From Kaiparowitsia implicata GSE-PSE-MK54-09C (GTDB lineage Bacteria; Cyanobacteriota; Cyanobacteriia; Elainellales; Elainellaceae), in NCBI GenBank assembly GCA_019359435.1, contig JAHHHI010000086.1:1-64000 (forward strand): a stretch of 64,000 nt of DNA, written 5' to 3'. The translations under genes and the position numbers were made by a program. Positions 30,458 through 51,364 of this stretch are shown one piece after another. The notes beneath the pieces are model-generated. The model was given only the letters and a program-made list of their open reading frames with translations, was not told where the DNA came from and ran no database searches. The first letter of the stretch is position 1. Every line of letters begins with the position of its first letter.

Positions 30458-30752
30458 GGGTGCGATGGCTGCTGGTCAAGAGCTTGACATTCTCTATCAT
30501 CCCACTGCTGGAGCGGGTTGTGGAAGCGCAGATCCTGGGGCACATCCATCACATCATCATAGTTCAGCAGTCTTGCGATAGAAACTTATGATTTGGGGGG
30601 TTAAACTCACTATCTCATGATGATTTTATTGAGTGTTCCGGGCATTCTTTAGGATGGGTGTTCCTGCTGAGGTGGCCATCGATTTAAGAATTCCACCCCA
30701 TGTTCAATCTCAATCTCCCAATCGTCTCTTCAATGCCCGGCAGGAATGTGAC

Positions 30753-33125
30753 ATGGGTCTTTATGACGGATCAATGCCGATTCAATCCTTACCTTTACAC
30801 GCATTATCTGCGGCTCAGCCCCAGGGGCGATCGCCCCTACCTGCACCGCCATTACCCCAGCCCGTTTTCACTGAGCGCCACGCGTTTAACCTCATGACGG
30901 TTTCCCCCTGGAGGATGATGGCTGTGCAACTCGATGCAGCAGCCCAGATCTGCGGCGTTGCTCCAGAATTGGCTGATTGGGGGCTCGCACCCGAGGCCAT
31001 GCTCGGGCGCTCCATTTTGGACTGGGTACAGCCCAGTGATGTGGAGACTGTGCGATCGCTGCTGCAGAATCCCTCTGAATTTTCTGCTGGCGTACAGGCC
31101 ACACTTTCCTTTGGGATGTCCGTGATGATGCAGGCGCAGACCCTGACTGTCGGCAATGGACAGGCACACACTCTGCTTCTGTGGACACCACTATCTTCTC
31201 AAGAGCCTGGAGAAAACCCACCAACAGATCATCCAGATCATCAGACGGCGCTGCTGACTCCCAATACATCCCAACGCCGTCTCGTCGCGCAAGTCGTCTC
31301 AGAATTCACCCGGCAAGTGCGCCACTCGCTTGACCTGCCTAGGATTTTGGCGGAAACAACTGCGACAGTCCAACGCTTGCTACAGGCCGACCGGGTGGTA
31401 TTAGTGCAGCCTCAAGGGGCAGCCGTGCAAGTGGTAGAAGCCGCCACCGCAGCAGGCATTCCAACACTGCAGGGGCGCGTGATTGGCGCTGCATCGGCTG
31501 ATCGTGGGGATATAGGAGGGGCGATCGCCACGTTTTGCAACGGGGCCATTGCCGTGACCCATCCGTTTCCTGCAGTAGATCTGCCGCCCGAACTCCAGTC
31601 TGCCCTGCAAGACATGGATGTTCAATCGGCCTTGATCGCGCCTGTGTCTCAAGAGCAAGCACCGTGGGGCTGGCTGATGGTGCAACACTGCACCGCGCCG
31701 CGCCCCTGGCATCTGTGGGAGGTCGAATTGGTCGCGCAGTTGTCAACTCAGCTTGAGAGCGCCATTCATCATGTAGAACTGCATCAACGGGTTCAGCAGT
31801 TGAATGCCGATCTGGAGCACCAGGTTCAATCCCAAACCGCTCAGCTCCAGATTGCACAAGAGTTTGAAGCGACACTGCAACGCATTACGGATAAAGTGCG
31901 CGACAGCCTAGACGAAGAGCAGATTTTGCAGGCTGCGGTACAGGAATTGGTCACCGTGTTGGGGGTAAATTGCTGCAACGCGGCTATTTACGACCTAGAA
32001 CAGGGCACGTCTACCATTCACTACGAATACACCACCACTGTGTCTCCCTACCAAGGGCGGGTCTCTCGGCTCTCGGCCTTTCCTGAACTCTACACGCCGC
32101 TATTGCATGGGCAACGGCTTCAGTTTTGTTCGCTAGTGCCCAACCCAGTACGAGGGTTTGTCTCTACCCTGGTCGTGCCTATGCTAGATGACAAAGGCAT
32201 ACTCGGGGATCTGTGGCTGATTAACCAGCCAGACTACGCATTTACGGATCAAGACATTCGGTTGGCGCAGTTGGTTGCTAATCAATGTGCGATCGCCCTC
32301 CGACAGGCGCGGCTCTATCAAGCAGCACAGGCGCAAGTCCAGGAACTAGAGCGGCTAAACCGACTTAAGGACGATTTCCTCAGCACCGTGTCTCACGAAC
32401 TGCGGACGCCTATGTCTAATATCAAAATGGCGCTGCAGATGTTGGAAATTTTTCTGAAGCAGTCAGGAGCATTAGACCACAACCCCGAGCGATCTACTCG
32501 TTATCTCAAAATTCTGCATGAAGAATCAGAGCGCGAAATTAACCTGATTAATGACCTGCTGGATTTATCACGACTAGACGCAGGGGGAGATACCGTTACC
32601 ACCGCTACAATTGATCTCTCCATGCTGCTGCCGCCGCTGCTTCAGCCCTTTGAAGAACGCACCCAGAGCCACCAGCAAACCCTGCGCTTAGTGTTAGACG
32701 ACAATCTGCCTCGCATCACTACTGACGCGGGCAAATTGGAGCGGGTGCTGGGGGAACTGTTGACCAATGCCTGCAAGTACACCCCCGCAAACGAGTGCAT
32801 TACTGTATCCGTATCGTGCTTACCTGATGTGCCAAACGCTCCAGAGCAATCCACCGGTTTGCCATCAGGGATTCGCCTGTCGGTCATCAATACTGGGGCT
32901 CAAATTCCTGCTGAAGAGTTAAAGCAAATTTTTGAGAAGTTTTACCGTATCCCCAACCATGACCCCTGGCAGTATGGAGGAACGGGTTTAGGACTGGCTC
33001 TAGTTAGAAAGCTGGTTGAGCGCATGGATGGAACAGTTCATGCCACGAGCACCCCAGCGCAGACCTGCTTTGCGATCGATCTGCCGTTAGTGCTGCTGGC
33101 AAAAGATAGCTCGCTGCTCCATTAG
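30753..33125 (+). CDS. PAS-GAF-GAF sensor histidine kinase
   Basis: This soluble 790-residue kinase has a PAS-like domain (about 55-145), a first GAF (about 185-345), a coiled linker, a second GAF (about 385-520) and a transmitter. The transmitter shows the H-box VSHELRTPM (phospho-acceptor His548), the N-box LLTNACKYTP and the G-box GGTGLGLAL. The first GAF resembles phytochrome-type GAFs but lacks the chromophore cysteine, so it is probably bilin-free. The C-terminal half closely parallels the kinase at 47849-50881. ATG at 30753 is preferred because CAGGAA lies 6 bases upstream. No response regulator lies beside it. Confidence 0.88.
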   Translation: MGLYDGSMPIQSLPLHALSAAQPQGRSPLPAPPLPQPVFTERHAFNLMTVSPWRMMAVQLDAAAQICGVAPELADWGLAPEAMLGRSILDWVQPSDVETVRSLLQNPSEFSAGVQATLSFGMSVMMQAQTLTVGNGQAHTLLLWTPLSSQEPGENPPTDHPDHQTALLTPNTSQRRLVAQVVSEFTRQVRHSLDLPRILAETTATVQRLLQADRVVLVQPQGAAVQVVEAATAAGIPTLQGRVIGAASADRGDIGGAIATFCNGAIAVTHPFPAVDLPPELQSALQDMDVQSALIAPVSQEQAPWGWLMVQHCTAPRPWHLWEVELVAQLSTQLESAIHHVELHQRVQQLNADLEHQVQSQTAQLQIAQEFEATLQRITDKVRDSLDEEQILQAAVQELVTVLGVNCCNAAIYDLEQGTSTIHYEYTTTVSPYQGRVSRLSAFPELYTPLLHGQRLQFCSLVPNPVRGFVSTLVVPMLDDKGILGDLWLINQPDYAFTDQDIRLAQLVANQCAIALRQARLYQAAQAQVQELERLNRLKDDFLSTVSHELRTPMSNIKMALQMLEIFLKQSGALDHNPERSTRYLKILHEESEREINLINDLLDLSRLDAGGDTVTTATIDLSMLLPPLLQPFEERTQSHQQTLRLVLDDNLPRITTDAGKLERVLGELLTNACKYTPANECITVSVSCLPDVPNAPEQSTGLPSGIRLSVINTGAQIPAEELKQIFEKFYRIPNHDPWQYGGTGLGLALVRKLVERMDGTVHATSTPAQTCFAIDLPLVLLAKDSSLLH

Positions 33126-33525: not shown

Positions 33526-34242
33526 ATGAGCAGTAATTTAGCAAAAGAACTTCGCGAAGGCACTAAGAAAGCCCATACCATGGCGGAGAACACGGGGTTT
33601 ATCGCATGTTTTCTAAAGGGAACCGTTGAGCCGACGTCTTATCGCAAGCTGGTGGCTAACTTCTACTTTGTGTATTCTGCTATGGAAGAGGAAATGATGA
33701 AGCACCAGCAGCATCCGGTGCTGGGTCAGCTCTACTTCCCTGAGCTCAATCGCAAAGCCACGCTAGAAGAAGATCTCACCTATTATTTTGGACAAAACTG
33801 GCGAGAGCAGGTGGCCCCCTCTGAAGCGGCGCAAGCCTATGTCGATCGCATTCACACGATCTCTGAGCAAGCGCCTGAACTGTTGATCGCGCACCTCTAT
33901 ACCCGCTATATGGGTGATCTGTCGGGTGGTCAAATTTTGAAGAAGATTGCCCAAAACGCCATGAACCTGTCGGACGGGCAGGGCACTGCGTTCTACGAGT
34001 TTGAGCAAATTCCTGATGAGAAGGTGTTTAAGCAGATCTATCGTGCTCGACTAGACGAAGTGCCGGTAGATGAGGCCACAGTCGCTCGCATTGTGGAAGA
34101 AGCTAACGATGCGTTTGGTTTAAACATGGTCATGTTTAAGGAGCTAGAAGGCAACTTGATCAAGGCCGTCGGCATTCAACTGTTTAATTTGCTAACTCGT
34201 CGTAACCGCCGCGGGGGCACAGAACTGGCTACGGCTGAGTAG
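33526..34242 (+). CDS. ho1: Heme oxygenase, biliverdin-producing
   Basis: This 238-residue enzyme opens heme with oxygen and ferredoxin electrons to give biliverdin IXalpha, iron and carbon monoxide. In cyanobacteria this starts the synthesis of phycobilins and phytochrome chromophores. The proximal ligand His17 lies in KELREGTKKAHTMAENT. The distal helix block YTRYMGDLSGGQILKKI and the region FYFVYSAMEEEM are typical. Length matches cyanobacterial HO1. The gene is followed by two hairpins, one with a T-run, so it is probably a single transcript. It could supply bilin to the candidate photoreceptor kinase at 47849-50881. Confidence 0.96.
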   Translation: MSSNLAKELREGTKKAHTMAENTGFIACFLKGTVEPTSYRKLVANFYFVYSAMEEEMMKHQQHPVLGQLYFPELNRKATLEEDLTYYFGQNWREQVAPSEAAQAYVDRIHTISEQAPELLIAHLYTRYMGDLSGGQILKKIAQNAMNLSDGQGTAFYEFEQIPDEKVFKQIYRARLDEVPVDEATVARIVEEANDAFGLNMVMFKELEGNLIKAVGIQLFNLLTRRNRRGGTELATAE

Positions 34243-46089: not shown

Positions 46090-47814
46090 ATGCGAGATAG
46101 TGCCCCGCCACATCGCAATGACATGGATTGGCTGCTGCGGCAAGCCGTTGGGGCGATCGCCCTCGCCCATCACGCTGACTGCGCCGTTTGGTGTCGCATT
46201 GATCTCGCTGCGGATACAGCGTGGGTCTATGCGACGGTAGGCATTGCAGATCGGGTTACCTTGGGTAGCACTCCGGCAGTCATTCGGGAGCCTTGGCCTG
46301 AGGAGCCTGAGACTGGGGAGCCTGGGACTGAGGAGTCCGCTACAGTAGGCTCTATGGCGGAGCAACAGACAGCCGCAAGCGGCGTTGCCGCAGAGGTAGA
46401 GAGCCAGCCGCTACCAGTCGTGCACTCCTACCGAGTATCGCCCCTGCCGCTCTGGGTTATTGATCAAGTGCGATCGCCCCATCGGATGCAGTTTGAGGAT
46501 GGCACCTTAGTGCAGCCGCTACCGCCGCCCGCGGTCACAGTCTCGGCAGATGAAGCCCCACCCTCTGCCGATCTGCCGTTCCTTCTGCAACTGCACCGTC
46601 CCCAAACGGCAGCGCCCGATCGATCTAACCGAGCTGTGACTCTATTTACGACCGAGATTGAGGGCTGGGCTAAAGAAGAATTAGCGGCGCTGAAGGCTCA
46701 AGCCACAGAGTTAAGCCTCGCCTATAGCAGCGTGTACTGGCGGCACAAGCTAGCCCAGGCACGGTTGCACATTGCCCGGTTGGGCCGCATTACCCACTTA
46801 CTCAATTCCTACATGGAGCCAGACGGGGTGGTGCAAACCATCTTGGCAGAGCTAGGGCAAGAATTTGGGGGCGATCGCACCCTGCTCGTGCAGGTGAGTG
46901 CGCCCGGTGCAGCGCTCATTGCCCACTGGGCCGCTGACTCTGTCCTAGAGCCAATTCCCGCCTTTCCGCCCGATGCCGATGCGGCCTGGCAGACAGCCGC
47001 CGCCCTATTCTTGCAAGATGGGGTCTCATACTTGCAAGTAGAGCCGCTAAACGACGAACTCGCCGCCCTGCGACCGTTACTGCCCGCCACTCAGACCCCC
47101 TCGCTGCTGTTGCTGCCTGTGTTTATCCAGCAAGAGCTGTTTGGGATTGTGGCCCTCGCGCAGCAGGATGGCAACAGCGCCTCTCTCGAGCAAGTGCAAT
47201 GGGTGAGCCAAGTAGTGGATTATTTGGCGATCGCCCTGACCCAGATGCAGCATACCCAAAGCCTGCGCCACCATCCCGATGCTCAGTGGCTGCCCTTGCC
47301 CTCAACCCTGCAAGCCGACGCCCAAGACCTGCTGCTTACCCACTGCCTCGCGCGCGAAGCCCTAGAAGATGAATTGAAACAGCTCAGCAGCAAAGCCCTG
47401 TGGGCCGAGCAACCTGTTTTTTGCATTCTGATGTGCGACATTGACTACTTCAAGCTAATCAACGATGCCCACGGCTACCCTGCCGGAGATGGGGTATTGC
47501 AAACTCTCGTAGAGCGCTTGCGGCACCAACTGCGCAAAGACACTCCCATTTATCGCCATGGCGGCGAAGAGTTTGTGATGATCTTGCGCGCTACCCCGCT
47601 GGCGCTCGCAACCGACATCGCTGAGCGTCTGCAGCAAGTCATTCGCGGCAAGCCCTTCTGGGTCGCCAACCAGCCCCTCACCGTAACCACGAGCATTGGC
47701 ATCGCCCAAAAAGAGGCCAGCCTAGATGCGACCGCATGGGACGTATTGCACCGAGCCGAGCAAGCGCTACTTCAGGCCAAGCGCCATGGCCGCAATTGTG
47801 TTAAGGCGCTGTAG
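46090..47814 (+). CDS. GAF-domain diguanylate cyclase (GGDEF)
   Basis: This 574-residue protein ends in a GGDEF domain (about 405-574) with an intact active-site motif YRHGGEEF and the metal-binding LMCDIDYFKLIND. It should make cyclic di-GMP, which controls motility and adhesion. A GAF domain (about 235-380) precedes it. The N-terminal ~200 residues are divergent and include a low-complexity Glu/Pro/Thr segment. The inhibitory RxxD site five residues before GGEEF is not evident, so product inhibition may be absent. No membrane helix is seen. It converges with the two-cysteine GAF kinase gene, 34 bases apart. Confidence 0.9.
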   Translation: MRDSAPPHRNDMDWLLRQAVGAIALAHHADCAVWCRIDLAADTAWVYATVGIADRVTLGSTPAVIREPWPEEPETGEPGTEESATVGSMAEQQTAASGVAAEVESQPLPVVHSYRVSPLPLWVIDQVRSPHRMQFEDGTLVQPLPPPAVTVSADEAPPSADLPFLLQLHRPQTAAPDRSNRAVTLFTTEIEGWAKEELAALKAQATELSLAYSSVYWRHKLAQARLHIARLGRITHLLNSYMEPDGVVQTILAELGQEFGGDRTLLVQVSAPGAALIAHWAADSVLEPIPAFPPDADAAWQTAAALFLQDGVSYLQVEPLNDELAALRPLLPATQTPSLLLLPVFIQQELFGIVALAQQDGNSASLEQVQWVSQVVDYLAIALTQMQHTQSLRHHPDAQWLPLPSTLQADAQDLLLTHCLAREALEDELKQLSSKALWAEQPVFCILMCDIDYFKLINDAHGYPAGDGVLQTLVERLRHQLRKDTPIYRHGGEEFVMILRATPLALATDIAERLQQVIRGKPFWVANQPLTVTTSIGIAQKEASLDATAWDVLHRAEQALLQAKRHGRNCVKAL

Positions 47815-47848: not shown

Positions 47849-50800
47849 TCAATGCGCTATGGGCAGCACCGCACGCTTAGTATGGTGAGCCGGGGGTCGG
47901 AGGGGCAAGCAGAGATCAAACGTCGTCCAAGCGTCACAACTCGATACGCTGAGCACACCGCCCAGATGCTCCGCCAGCTTTTTGGACAGCGCTAGCCCTA
48001 GCCCGGTGCCGCCGTGTTTCCAGGGGTCATGGTTGGGGATCCGGTAAAATCGCTCAAACACATGCGTCTGCTCTTCTGGCGCAATTTCGACCCCAGAATT
48101 GCTAACGCTGATAGTGAGAAAATCTGCCAGAGGCTTGGCGGTAATTCGGATCTGTTCCGCCGCCGGGGTGTACTTGCAGGCGTTGGTCAACAGTTCCGAC
48201 AGAATCCGCCCTAAATAGCTGCTGTCTGTGTGGACGGTGGGCAGGTGCGGCGGCAGTGCAATCGTGAGGGTTTGCTGTTGGCGCTGGGCCTGTTGCAGAA
48301 ATGGCTCCACGACATGGCGAATCCAGGTGTGGGGCTCAATGTCGGCCAGAAGCAAGGGTTCGGTCTCAGCATCTAGACGGGAGAGATCGAGCAGGGTATT
48401 GATCAGGTCTAGTTCTTGCTGGCAGGCCTCCGTCAGAATAGTCAGGTAGCGATGCATAGGTTGGTCATCCAATAGCCCCAGCTTGGCAAAGCTCATTTCT
48501 AACATTTGGGCCGCCATGTGGATGTTTGCCATTGGGGTTCGCAGTTCGTGGGAGACGCTGCATAAGAAATCGTCTTTAAGGTGGTTAAGGCGTTCTAGCT
48601 CCTTGACTTGGGCATGGGCGGCTTCGTAGAGGCGGGCTTGACGAATGGCGATCGCACATTGATTAGCCACCTGCTGCACTAAGCGAATTTCTAACTCGTC
48701 AAAGCAGGCCCCATTTAGCTTGTAAAGCCATAAATCTCCAATCACACCCTGGTCATCAATCAACGGGCAGGCAAATACGCTAAACGGCTGGGTTAGGGCT
48801 CGAATCGTCACACAATCCCCCTCTCGATGCAGCCGCCAGCAAAAGTGCAGCGATTCGCCAGCGAGCAACGATGGGTAGATTTCTGGATAATTCTTCATCA
48901 TCACCAAGCGGTGCTGCACACTGGGCACGGCGGTCACCACGTGTTCATAGCGAATGTTCGAGGTCTGGGCCTCTAGGTCATAGATGCCCGTGTCGCAGAT
49001 GCTCACCTCAAGGCCTGTGGCAATTTCCTGCACAGCCGTTTGCAAAATTTGAGACTCGTCTAGGCTGTCACACACCCGATCGGTAATCCGCTTGAGCAGT
49101 TCTTCGTGGTGCAGAGCGCGACGCAGTTGCTGGGTGCGGCGTTCCACCGTTTGCTCTAGCGTGATGTTGAGCGTCTGCAGTTGGCTATATAAGGTCGATT
49201 GCTGAATGGCGATTCCCGCCTGTTCGGCAAGCTGCAGCAGTAGATCCTTTTCCCAGGGCTGCCACACGCGCGGCCGGGTGCAGTGGTGGGCAATCAGCAA
49301 TCCCCAAAGGCGATCGCCCGACCGAATGGGCACCACCAGATTCGCCATTACCTGAAAGTGATCGAGCAGGTCACGATAGCAGGGTTCAATGTTTGCCGTA
49401 CCCACGTTATCAATGGCACTCGTCCGCCCGTCTCGATAGGGCTGCGCCTGTTGGTCGCCAAAGCAGGGGTCATGATAAATTTCGCCAACCAGCGAGTAGC
49501 GCGAGGCCACAATTGATTCCACAACAAAGCTGCCGCTCCAGTCGGGGTTGAAGCGATAAATCACAACGCGATCGACCTGCAAAAACTGGCGCACTTCAGT
49601 AACGGTGGTTTGCAGCACCACGTCTAAATCGAGCGATCGCCGCACCTGCTGCGTCATCCAATGAATGAGGCGATCGCGCCGCGCCTGCTGTGCCCGCAAC
49701 CGTTCAATTTGAATACGTTCGGTGATATCAGTATTGGCAACCACACAGGTTATTACCTTGCCCATCGGGTCTTTAAGCGGATAAAAGCGCGTCAGGCTAT
49801 GGCGAAACGCGCCGTCATGGCAGCGATAGATCAGTTCCACATTGCTTAAGGACTGCCCCGCAAAGACGCGCTCTGTCATTTGAGAGATGGACAGAGGATA
49901 ATCCAACCGATGCACAATAGACGCCATCGACTCGCCGCAAATGGTCGCGGAATAGCCATACAGATCACGACAGGCCGCATTCCAAGACTGAATGGTGCCA
50001 TCGCGCTGAATTGAAAAAATCGGAATCGGCGAATGCTCAATGGTCTGACGATAGCCATCTTGGCTGCGCGCCAGCAGTTCGTGGGTGCGTTTAATGGGCG
50101 TAATGTCAATCGACAGGGTAGTGAGGTGGAAAGGCTCAGACTGAGGATGGGGCTGTCGCCTCAGCTGAGTTGCAATCCACCGCATCTCTTGGTGCTGGGT
50201 CAAAAACCGATACTCAACGGTGATGGGATCTACAGTCAGCAGAGCCGCTCGGCAGCTGTGCTGAACGCGGGGCGCATCGTCGGGGTGAATGCGCGATTGC
50301 CAGAGGGTAGGAGTGGTTTGAAAGGCTTGGCTAGCATGGCCAAAGAGTTGCGCCACGCCGGCTGAGCCGATTTGGTAAAGCAGGTGACCCTCAGCATCGC
50401 TTGAGAACTGGGCGATCGCCACCACAGAGGAATTCAGCAAACTAGCGGCTTCAGATTCCGGCCCCCCGCCTACCGCCGGGACTGGTGCCATCAGCTGCTG
50501 CTGGATTGCATCCAAGGTGAGAATCCGCACCACCTCGCCCCCCTCAGACACGATGGGCAGGTGGTGAATACGGTGGTGGTGCAGCAGTTGGGCAGCCTTA
50601 AGCAGATTGCCCGCATCCAACTCTGACAGGGTGATAACGGGATGGCTCATCACCGCGCTGACGGGCGCAGATGTGTCTAGCCCACGGGCGATCGCCCCCA
50701 CCACATCCTGCCCCGTCACGATACCGCAAAGGGTGCCCTGGGTCATCACCAAGACACAGCGGCTAGGCTGCGGGTGCAGCAGCTTAATAGCCGCTGCCAG

Positions 50801-50881
50801 TGAACAGTCTGGCGACACAGTGGCCGTCGGGCTAGGGCGCTGGCTGGGCGCTGAGTTAGGCGGAATAGGCTCTAGAGGCAT
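47849..50881 (-). CDS. CBS-PAS-PAS-GAF-GAF histidine kinase with a candidate bilin-binding GAF
   Basis: This soluble kinase of about 1010 residues has paired CBS domains (about 15-130), two PAS domains (about 150-260 and 270-390), a phytochrome-type GAF (about 415-565), a second GAF (about 610-745) and a transmitter (H-box VSHELRTPM with His778, N-box LLTNACKYTP, G-box GGTGLGLAL). The first GAF carries both cysteines expected of DXCF cyanobacteriochromes: D-P-C-F (Cys473) and the canonical site in EPCYRDLLDHFQVMANLVVPI (Cys501). The usual Cys-His pair there is Cys-Tyr. Covalent bilin binding is therefore possible but unproven. The C-terminal half parallels the kinase at 30753. No regulator gene is adjacent. 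Confidence 0.88.
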   Translation of the reverse strand: MPLEPIPPNSAPSQRPSPTATVSPDCSLAAAIKLLHPQPSRCVLVMTQGTLCGIVTGQDVVGAIARGLDTSAPVSAVMSHPVITLSELDAGNLLKAAQLLHHHRIHHLPIVSEGGEVVRILTLDAIQQQLMAPVPAVGGGPESEAASLLNSSVVAIAQFSSDAEGHLLYQIGSAGVAQLFGHASQAFQTTPTLWQSRIHPDDAPRVQHSCRAALLTVDPITVEYRFLTQHQEMRWIATQLRRQPHPQSEPFHLTTLSIDITPIKRTHELLARSQDGYRQTIEHSPIPIFSIQRDGTIQSWNAACRDLYGYSATICGESMASIVHRLDYPLSISQMTERVFAGQSLSNVELIYRCHDGAFRHSLTRFYPLKDPMGKVITCVVANTDITERIQIERLRAQQARRDRLIHWMTQQVRRSLDLDVVLQTTVTEVRQFLQVDRVVIYRFNPDWSGSFVVESIVASRYSLVGEIYHDPCFGDQQAQPYRDGRTSAIDNVGTANIEPCYRDLLDHFQVMANLVVPIRSGDRLWGLLIAHHCTRPRVWQPWEKDLLLQLAEQAGIAIQQSTLYSQLQTLNITLEQTVERRTQQLRRALHHEELLKRITDRVCDSLDESQILQTAVQEIATGLEVSICDTGIYDLEAQTSNIRYEHVVTAVPSVQHRLVMMKNYPEIYPSLLAGESLHFCWRLHREGDCVTIRALTQPFSVFACPLIDDQGVIGDLWLYKLNGACFDELEIRLVQQVANQCAIAIRQARLYEAAHAQVKELERLNHLKDDFLCSVSHELRTPMANIHMAAQMLEMSFAKLGLLDDQPMHRYLTILTEACQQELDLINTLLDLSRLDAETEPLLLADIEPHTWIRHVVEPFLQQAQRQQQTLTIALPPHLPTVHTDSSYLGRILSELLTNACKYTPAAEQIRITAKPLADFLTISVSNSGVEIAPEEQTHVFERFYRIPNHDPWKHGGTGLGLALSKKLAEHLGGVLSVSSCDAWTTFDLCLPLRPPAHHTKRAVLPIAH

Positions 50882-51364
50882 GGACAAAAAAGGCTGCGGA
50901 GGGTTGCAATGCAGCAAGGGGAAGGCTTGCTCAGCAGTGGCACGGGTGAAATGCAGGAGTCGGAGATTTGCCAGACCCACAGCGGCGCTGGCCAGAGTGG
51001 CAAAAACCGCACCACGGCGTGCATAGACTCTTTTTGGCTCGTGTGGCGCTGCGGTTTCGAGACATGGGTTATGGCAGTAGCCTCCTTAAGGTTTAGAACA
51101 CTCAGCGGACATCATGTCCCGAGAGTTAGCCGTCAAGTTCAGCAAAGTCCTCAACCCGCACTGTCAGCAATGCGGGGAAAACGGGTTTGCGTTGTGTCAG
51201 CGACGCGCTGCGGGACTGACACAACACTATCGAACTCATGTCTAGATGTAGAGACTTCAGGTGACATACTGAACCGACTGTATAAGGTTCATAACCTCTG
51301 CCGTTTTATCTTTGCCGTTTTATCTTTAATGTAGCAACGCCAATTTTTTAACGCATTAAACGCA
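50882..51364. other. Spacer with a hairpin of the 18301 type
   Basis: Apart from the hairpin at 51189-51227 and a small CCCGCA/TGCGGG stem near 51160, no feature is supported. Rightward open frames across it look like shadows of the kinase gene's 5' part and low-complexity sequence. Confidence 0.35.
51189..51227. repeat. 39-base palindromic hairpin, second copy of the 18301-18339 type
   Basis: GCGTTGTGTCAG pairs with CTGACACAAC near its 3' end. Aligned base for base with 18301-18339 it shares length, stem and the central CGCTG. A stem change at position 8 (G for T) is compensated at position 32 (C for A). Confidence 0.55.

Follow-up and report, generated by a model that had tools for sequence, protein, structure and literature searches.

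Isomerisation of phycocyanobilin (PCB) to phycoviolobilin (PVB) is typical of the DXCF class of cyanobacteriochromes (CBCRs), though not universal in it. The DXCF mechanism and the formation of PVB have both been described (PMC11284453). In the GAF domain of the blue/green DXCF CBCR TePixJ (PDB 3VV4, 4GLQ), which belongs to a methyl-accepting chemotaxis-type receptor, the second cysteine is Cys494 of a DPCF motif, the canonical chromophore cysteine Cys522 is followed by His523, and Val and Leu occupy the two ‘trapped-twist’ positions. The tandem sensor kinase in PDB entry 6OAP, which we take to be PPHK, has DQYF and no second Cys, with Cys-His at the chromophore site. miRFP670nano (PDB 6MGH) was engineered from the red/green domain NpR3784, a Cys-His parent; it is a fluorescent, biliverdin-binding, single-Cys domain (DRYF) with CYRDLL at the chromophore site, where its Tyr87 stacks on the bilin. 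Finally, insert-Cys CBCRs (NpF2164g3, Mbr3854g4 type) use dual-Cys chemistry at C10; their second Cys belongs to an inserted loop (CxxK/R), DTYL replaces DXCF, and Cys-Tyr is nearly invariant among those we sampled.

The window, i.e. the whole 64-kb stretch of DNA analysed here, encodes a sensor histidine kinase on the minus strand, whose parts are:

47849..50980, minus strand: sensor histidine kinase, CBS-CBS-PAS-PAS-GAF(CBCR)-GAF-HisKA-HATPase (open reading frame of 1043 aa from GTG 50980; Pfam)
50477..50833, minus strand: CBS pair, approximate limits (Pfam PF00571, two stretches, 6.8e-13)
50159..50365, minus strand: PAS domain 1, PAS_3 (Pfam)
49715..50038, minus strand: PAS domain 2, PAS_4 (Pfam)
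49205..49630, minus strand: CBCR GAF of the bilin-binding type, DXCF class (Pfam PF01590, PDB matches, TePixJ alignment, AlphaFold model)
48644..49057, minus strand: second GAF, lacking the phytochrome-type Cys (Pfam)
48365..48577, minus strand: HisKA with H-box SHELRTPM (Pfam, translation)
47897..48226, minus strand: HATPase_c with boxes NACKY and GTGLGL (Pfam, translation)

The stretch 49181-49630, originally proposed to encode a DXCF photosensor domain, is the first GAF of this kinase, and Pfam places the full-length GAF at 49205-49630 (PF01590 match of 6.9e-33 for the whole kinase protein). Counting from an alternative start, ATG 50879-50881, reproduces exactly the residue numbers of that prediction (Cys473, Cys501). 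Pfam gives no PHY domain match in the kinase, and no response regulator was recognised beside its gene among the open reading frames listed for the window. Convergent with the kinase, the two stop codons lying about 35 bp apart, is the gene of a GAF-GGDEF protein with a GGEEF motif (46090-47814, plus strand), a probable diguanylate cyclase whose GAF showed no Cys of the bilin type.

At the chromophore site of the kinase, the residues of interest are:

49460..49471, minus strand: DPCF motif (Asp471, Cys473, Phe474), in which Cys473 (codon TGC, 49463-49465) is the second Cys and the equivalent of TePixJ Cys494 (alignment, model)
49379..49381, minus strand: canonical chromophore Cys501 (TGC), equivalent of TePixJ Cys522 (alignment, model)
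49376..49378, minus strand: Tyr502 (TAT) replacing His, equivalent of TePixJ His523 and miRFP670nano Tyr87 (alignment)

Searched with phmmer against the PDB, the domain matches bilin GAFs of the phytochrome superfamily, namely PPHK (2e-48), miRFP670nano (6e-41), NpR6012g4 and TePixJ (8.5e-28). Judged from sequence, the likeness of 49205-49630 to bilin GAFs is far beyond chance. The best match, PPHK, is 48% identical but has Asn where the window domain has its pocket His. Pairwise alignment with TePixJ shows no gaps over 139 aa at 35% identity and sets DPCF on DPCF and Cys-Tyr on Cys-His. An AlphaFold model built from an 86-row alignment of the window domain and its genomic relatives (mean pLDDT 86.9, pTM 0.83) supersedes a poor single-sequence model (pLDDT 44); it matches the PPHK entry group with a Z of 25.6, while its residues 18-166 superpose on residues 436-584 of TePixJ 4glq (149 residues, same length; Z 22.6, rmsd 2.1).

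Whether Cys501 stands at the chromophore site had been set beforehand as an alignment check. The offset to TePixJ is 418 in both sequence and model, so that domain residue 76 corresponds to C494 and residue 104 to C522, and Asp471, Cys473, Cys501 and Tyr502 fall on D492, C494, C522 and H523. The gapless alignment and the model offset thus exclude a misplacement of Cys501. TePixJ F495, Y503, R507 and L527 also have their equivalents in the window domain; the last of these, Leu109 of the domain (protein numbers are higher by 397), keeps the usual Leu at the Tyr/Leu colour position (PMC7504144). The bilin contacts of miRFP670nano, D56, F59, Y67, R71, C86, Y87 and H117 (PMC6336887), correspond to D74, F77, Y85, R89, C104, Y105 and H135 of the window domain, all of which are present.

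Two other classes were considered and ruled out: an expanded red/green (XRG) CBCR, since the window has YHDPCF as opposed to WXDXXL without the second Cys, and an insert-Cys CBCR, since its stretch from beta2 to the DXCF position carries no extra residues compared with TePixJ. What is found instead is a CBCR-type GAF fold with Asp-Xaa-Cys-Phe at TePixJ 492-495 and a Cys at the position of TePixJ Cys522. The assignment of the first GAF to the DXCF class therefore stands, carried by DPCF and the canonical Cys, the PDB matches and the gapless TePixJ alignment. It is likely that the kinase is a DXCF photosensor that binds bilin, the binding being the part that we infer. The domain could conceivably be a relic that no longer holds bilin, like the CBCR-like GAF lacking both Cys in the kinase at 30633-33125, and such a degenerate GAF does occur in the same window; however, the domain at 49205-49630 retains its two Cys and every pocket residue checked, and is also the top GAF match across the whole genome, and we consider a relic highly improbable.

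The kinase also has close relatives of similar design. The best whole-protein matches in 36 genomes belonging to the same order span the PAS-GAF-GAF-HK part with some 45-58% identity, and at least two of these best matches also have a CBS match. The N-terminal CBS domains that had been proposed ahead of the photosensor are present as a pair by PF00571. We rejected the pair as a novelty, because CBS pairs precede PAS or GAF domains in many cyanobacterial genomes, and CBS matches are present in the closest full-architecture relatives as well. Two same-family relatives, L244/L036 and L245/L035, share the CBS-PAS-PAS-GAF-GAF-HK order and DPCF at 45-48% identity over their full length, but they have weaker CBS matches and Cys-His where the window protein has Cys-Tyr; the His/Tyr difference thus exists within this architecture. 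L035 additionally lacks the beta2 Phe that the window domain has at Phe452.

A source of bilin was also proposed within the window:

33526..34242, plus strand: heme oxygenase, for biliverdin supply (PF01126, 1.9e-89)

A genome-wide profile search shows this heme oxygenase to be the only one in the genome, which also has, on another contig, a single Fe_bilin_red gene with a PcyA-like sequence, by eye probably PcyA itself. With both genes encoded, a supply of PCB is expected. The heme oxygenase is thus present as proposed, whereas a specific link between it and the kinase was rejected: the genes lie 13.6 kb apart on opposite strands and form no operon, and the heme oxygenase, the genome's only copy, serves all bilin proteins. 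The histidine kinase gene at 30633-33125 (plus strand) precedes the heme oxygenase gene, with the same orientation, by about 400 bp. The Cys-less CBCR-like GAF of this kinase is 29% identical to the DXCF GAF, and the kinase may be a non-bilin sensor with a tie to the supply of bilin.

The Tyr after the canonical Cys had been regarded as an unusual substitution for His. The survey of related domains contradicts this. DXCF domains from genome contigs comprise 54 Cys-His and 33 Cys-Tyr sites, those from the 36 order-level genomes 66 and 31, and the combined DXCF sample (n=202) 128 and 74, i.e. about one third Cys-Tyr. A single transition separates the His codons (CAT/CAC) from the Tyr codons (TAT/TAC), and a tree computed with the motif columns left out requires at least 33 changes of the residue between His and Tyr, with 14 independent His/Tyr pairs on well-supported branches within DXCF. 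A Cys-Tyr site is therefore ordinary within the class. Co-variation with Tyr/His in DXCF domains was significant by Fisher's test at positions 169, 43, 112 and 96, but none of these held on independent tree pairs. In the genome of the window, which counts 69 GAF matches, at least four domains are of the DXCF type, with Cys-Tyr in the window domain and L007 and Cys-His in L002 and L023, so that several dual-Cys sensors coexist in it.

Other classes differ sharply in this respect. The same 36 genomes yielded 53 red/green-type domains with WXDXXL, 5 of which are Cys-Tyr, in agreement with the naming of NpF2164g5 as the Cys-Tyr exception among red/green CBCRs (PMC9378818). Natural WXDXXL-type domains with Cys-Tyr (L275, L277, L280, L327 and L328, the last also with an insert-Cys-like loop Cys) are, by analogy with NpF2164g5, candidate fluorescent or biliverdin-binding CBCRs. 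Insert-Cys domains from class-level genomes (L337-L406) are Cys-Tyr in 69 of 70 cases, the sole exception being the Cys-His domain L401; this sample comes largely from one lineage and was found with a query that is itself Cys-Tyr. The share of Cys-Tyr thus rises from 9% in single-Cys domains through about one third in DXCF to about 99% in insert-Cys domains, as raw counts that ignore kinship, and a tree-corrected comparison of Tyr with the second Cys has very few independent pairs. We found no statement of the spread of Cys-Tyr among CBCR classes in the literature searched, subscription papers defining DXCF sublineages being outside its scope.

As for what Tyr502 might do, Tyr-bilin pi-stacking has been described for H87Y in miRFP670nano (PMC6336887) and for Cys-His to Cys-Tyr in SPI1085g3 (PMC9378818). 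Such engineered changes (PMC6336887, PMC9378818) lay the Tyr ring on the bilin, increase fluorescence and the binding of biliverdin, and can make reversion slower. Natural Cys-Tyr in NpF2164g5, which does not photoconvert, and Cys-Tyr in miRFP670nano go with lost photoconversion and high fluorescence (PMC9378818), and by analogy Tyr502 could make the window domain weakly photoactive. It is nonetheless unlikely that Tyr502 has turned the window domain into one of this kind, which photoconverts poorly, fluoresces or accepts biliverdin, since both examples are single-Cys red/green-type domains, one third of DXCF domains carry Cys-Tyr, and the insert-Cys CBCRs, 69 of 70 of which are Cys-Tyr in our sample, are known as a class to photoconvert (PMC5240096). 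Tentatively, and with a chance well short of even, there may be a functional coupling between the second Cys and the residue after the canonical Cys, with Tyr supporting reversible attack of the thiol at C10, e.g. by stacking near C10 and removing the charge or a hydrogen bond of His. Such a coupling would explain why Cys-Tyr occurs in nearly all insert-Cys, many DXCF and few single-Cys red/green CBCRs.

The colour of the photoproduct may be indicated by two further residues:

49526..49528, minus strand: Phe452 (F55), beta2 ‘trapped-twist’ position (aligned with the NpR6012g4 Phe; position III of PMC5240096)
49355..49357, minus strand: Phe509 (F112), helix alpha4 ‘trapped-twist’ position, canonical Cys + 8 (position X of PMC5240096)

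Position X, where Phe509 is placed, is taken to be that of UG1 Tyr777 from the distance of Tyr777 to UG1 Tyr741. Trapped-twist Phe residues are tied to red/green and teal-DXCF photocycles (PMC5240096). Unlike TePixJ, the window domain has Phe at both positions, a feature of teal-DXCF domains shared by only 21 of the 202 sampled DXCF domains; a blue/teal photocycle, as opposed to the blue/green one of TePixJ, is thus predicted, at slightly less than an even chance for a sequence-based call. In the tree, which contains no characterised teal-DXCF reference, no supported set surrounds the window domain. There is also a substantial possibility that the same DXCF domain either keeps PCB and is blue/orange, or makes PVB and is blue/green like TePixJ, the trap Phe residues not acting as predicted. 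DXCF photoproducts range from teal to orange with chromophore and tuning (PMC6628166), and the residues behind isomerisation are incompletely known, three of them mattering in XRG domains without the DXCF Cys (PMC11284453); against this, both trap Phe residues are in place.

On the blue/teal reading, Cys501 would attach PCB supplied by heme oxygenase and PcyA, and Cys473 would attack the 15Z bilin at C10, so that the conjugation is split and the dark state absorbs blue or violet light. Light would then isomerise C15=C16 and break the Cys473 bond, and the resulting longer-wavelength photoproduct, after at least partial conversion of PCB to PVB, would more likely be teal than green. The signal would pass through a helical linker and the second GAF to HisKA. 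Stacked on the bilin close to ring C, Tyr502 would adjust fluorescence, the adduct equilibrium and the speed of reversion without abolishing bilin binding. The colours, the kinase output and the role of Tyr502 in this soluble histidine kinase are what we infer.

The kinase itself adds one more DXCF photosensor kinase, and the survey of Cys-Tyr around it matters more, its lasting outcome being how unevenly Cys-Tyr is distributed over the CBCR classes. Tags that fluoresce or bind biliverdin could be developed from natural Cys-Tyr domains, Cys-His to Cys-Tyr changes having so far been mostly engineered. Were Tyr and the second Cys coupled, the window protein and its Cys-His relatives of the same architecture would form a natural His/Tyr test set. 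In place of an unusual Tyr, a frequent His/Tyr switch in dual-Cys CBCRs provides a simple, testable idea for the tuning of colour and adduct.
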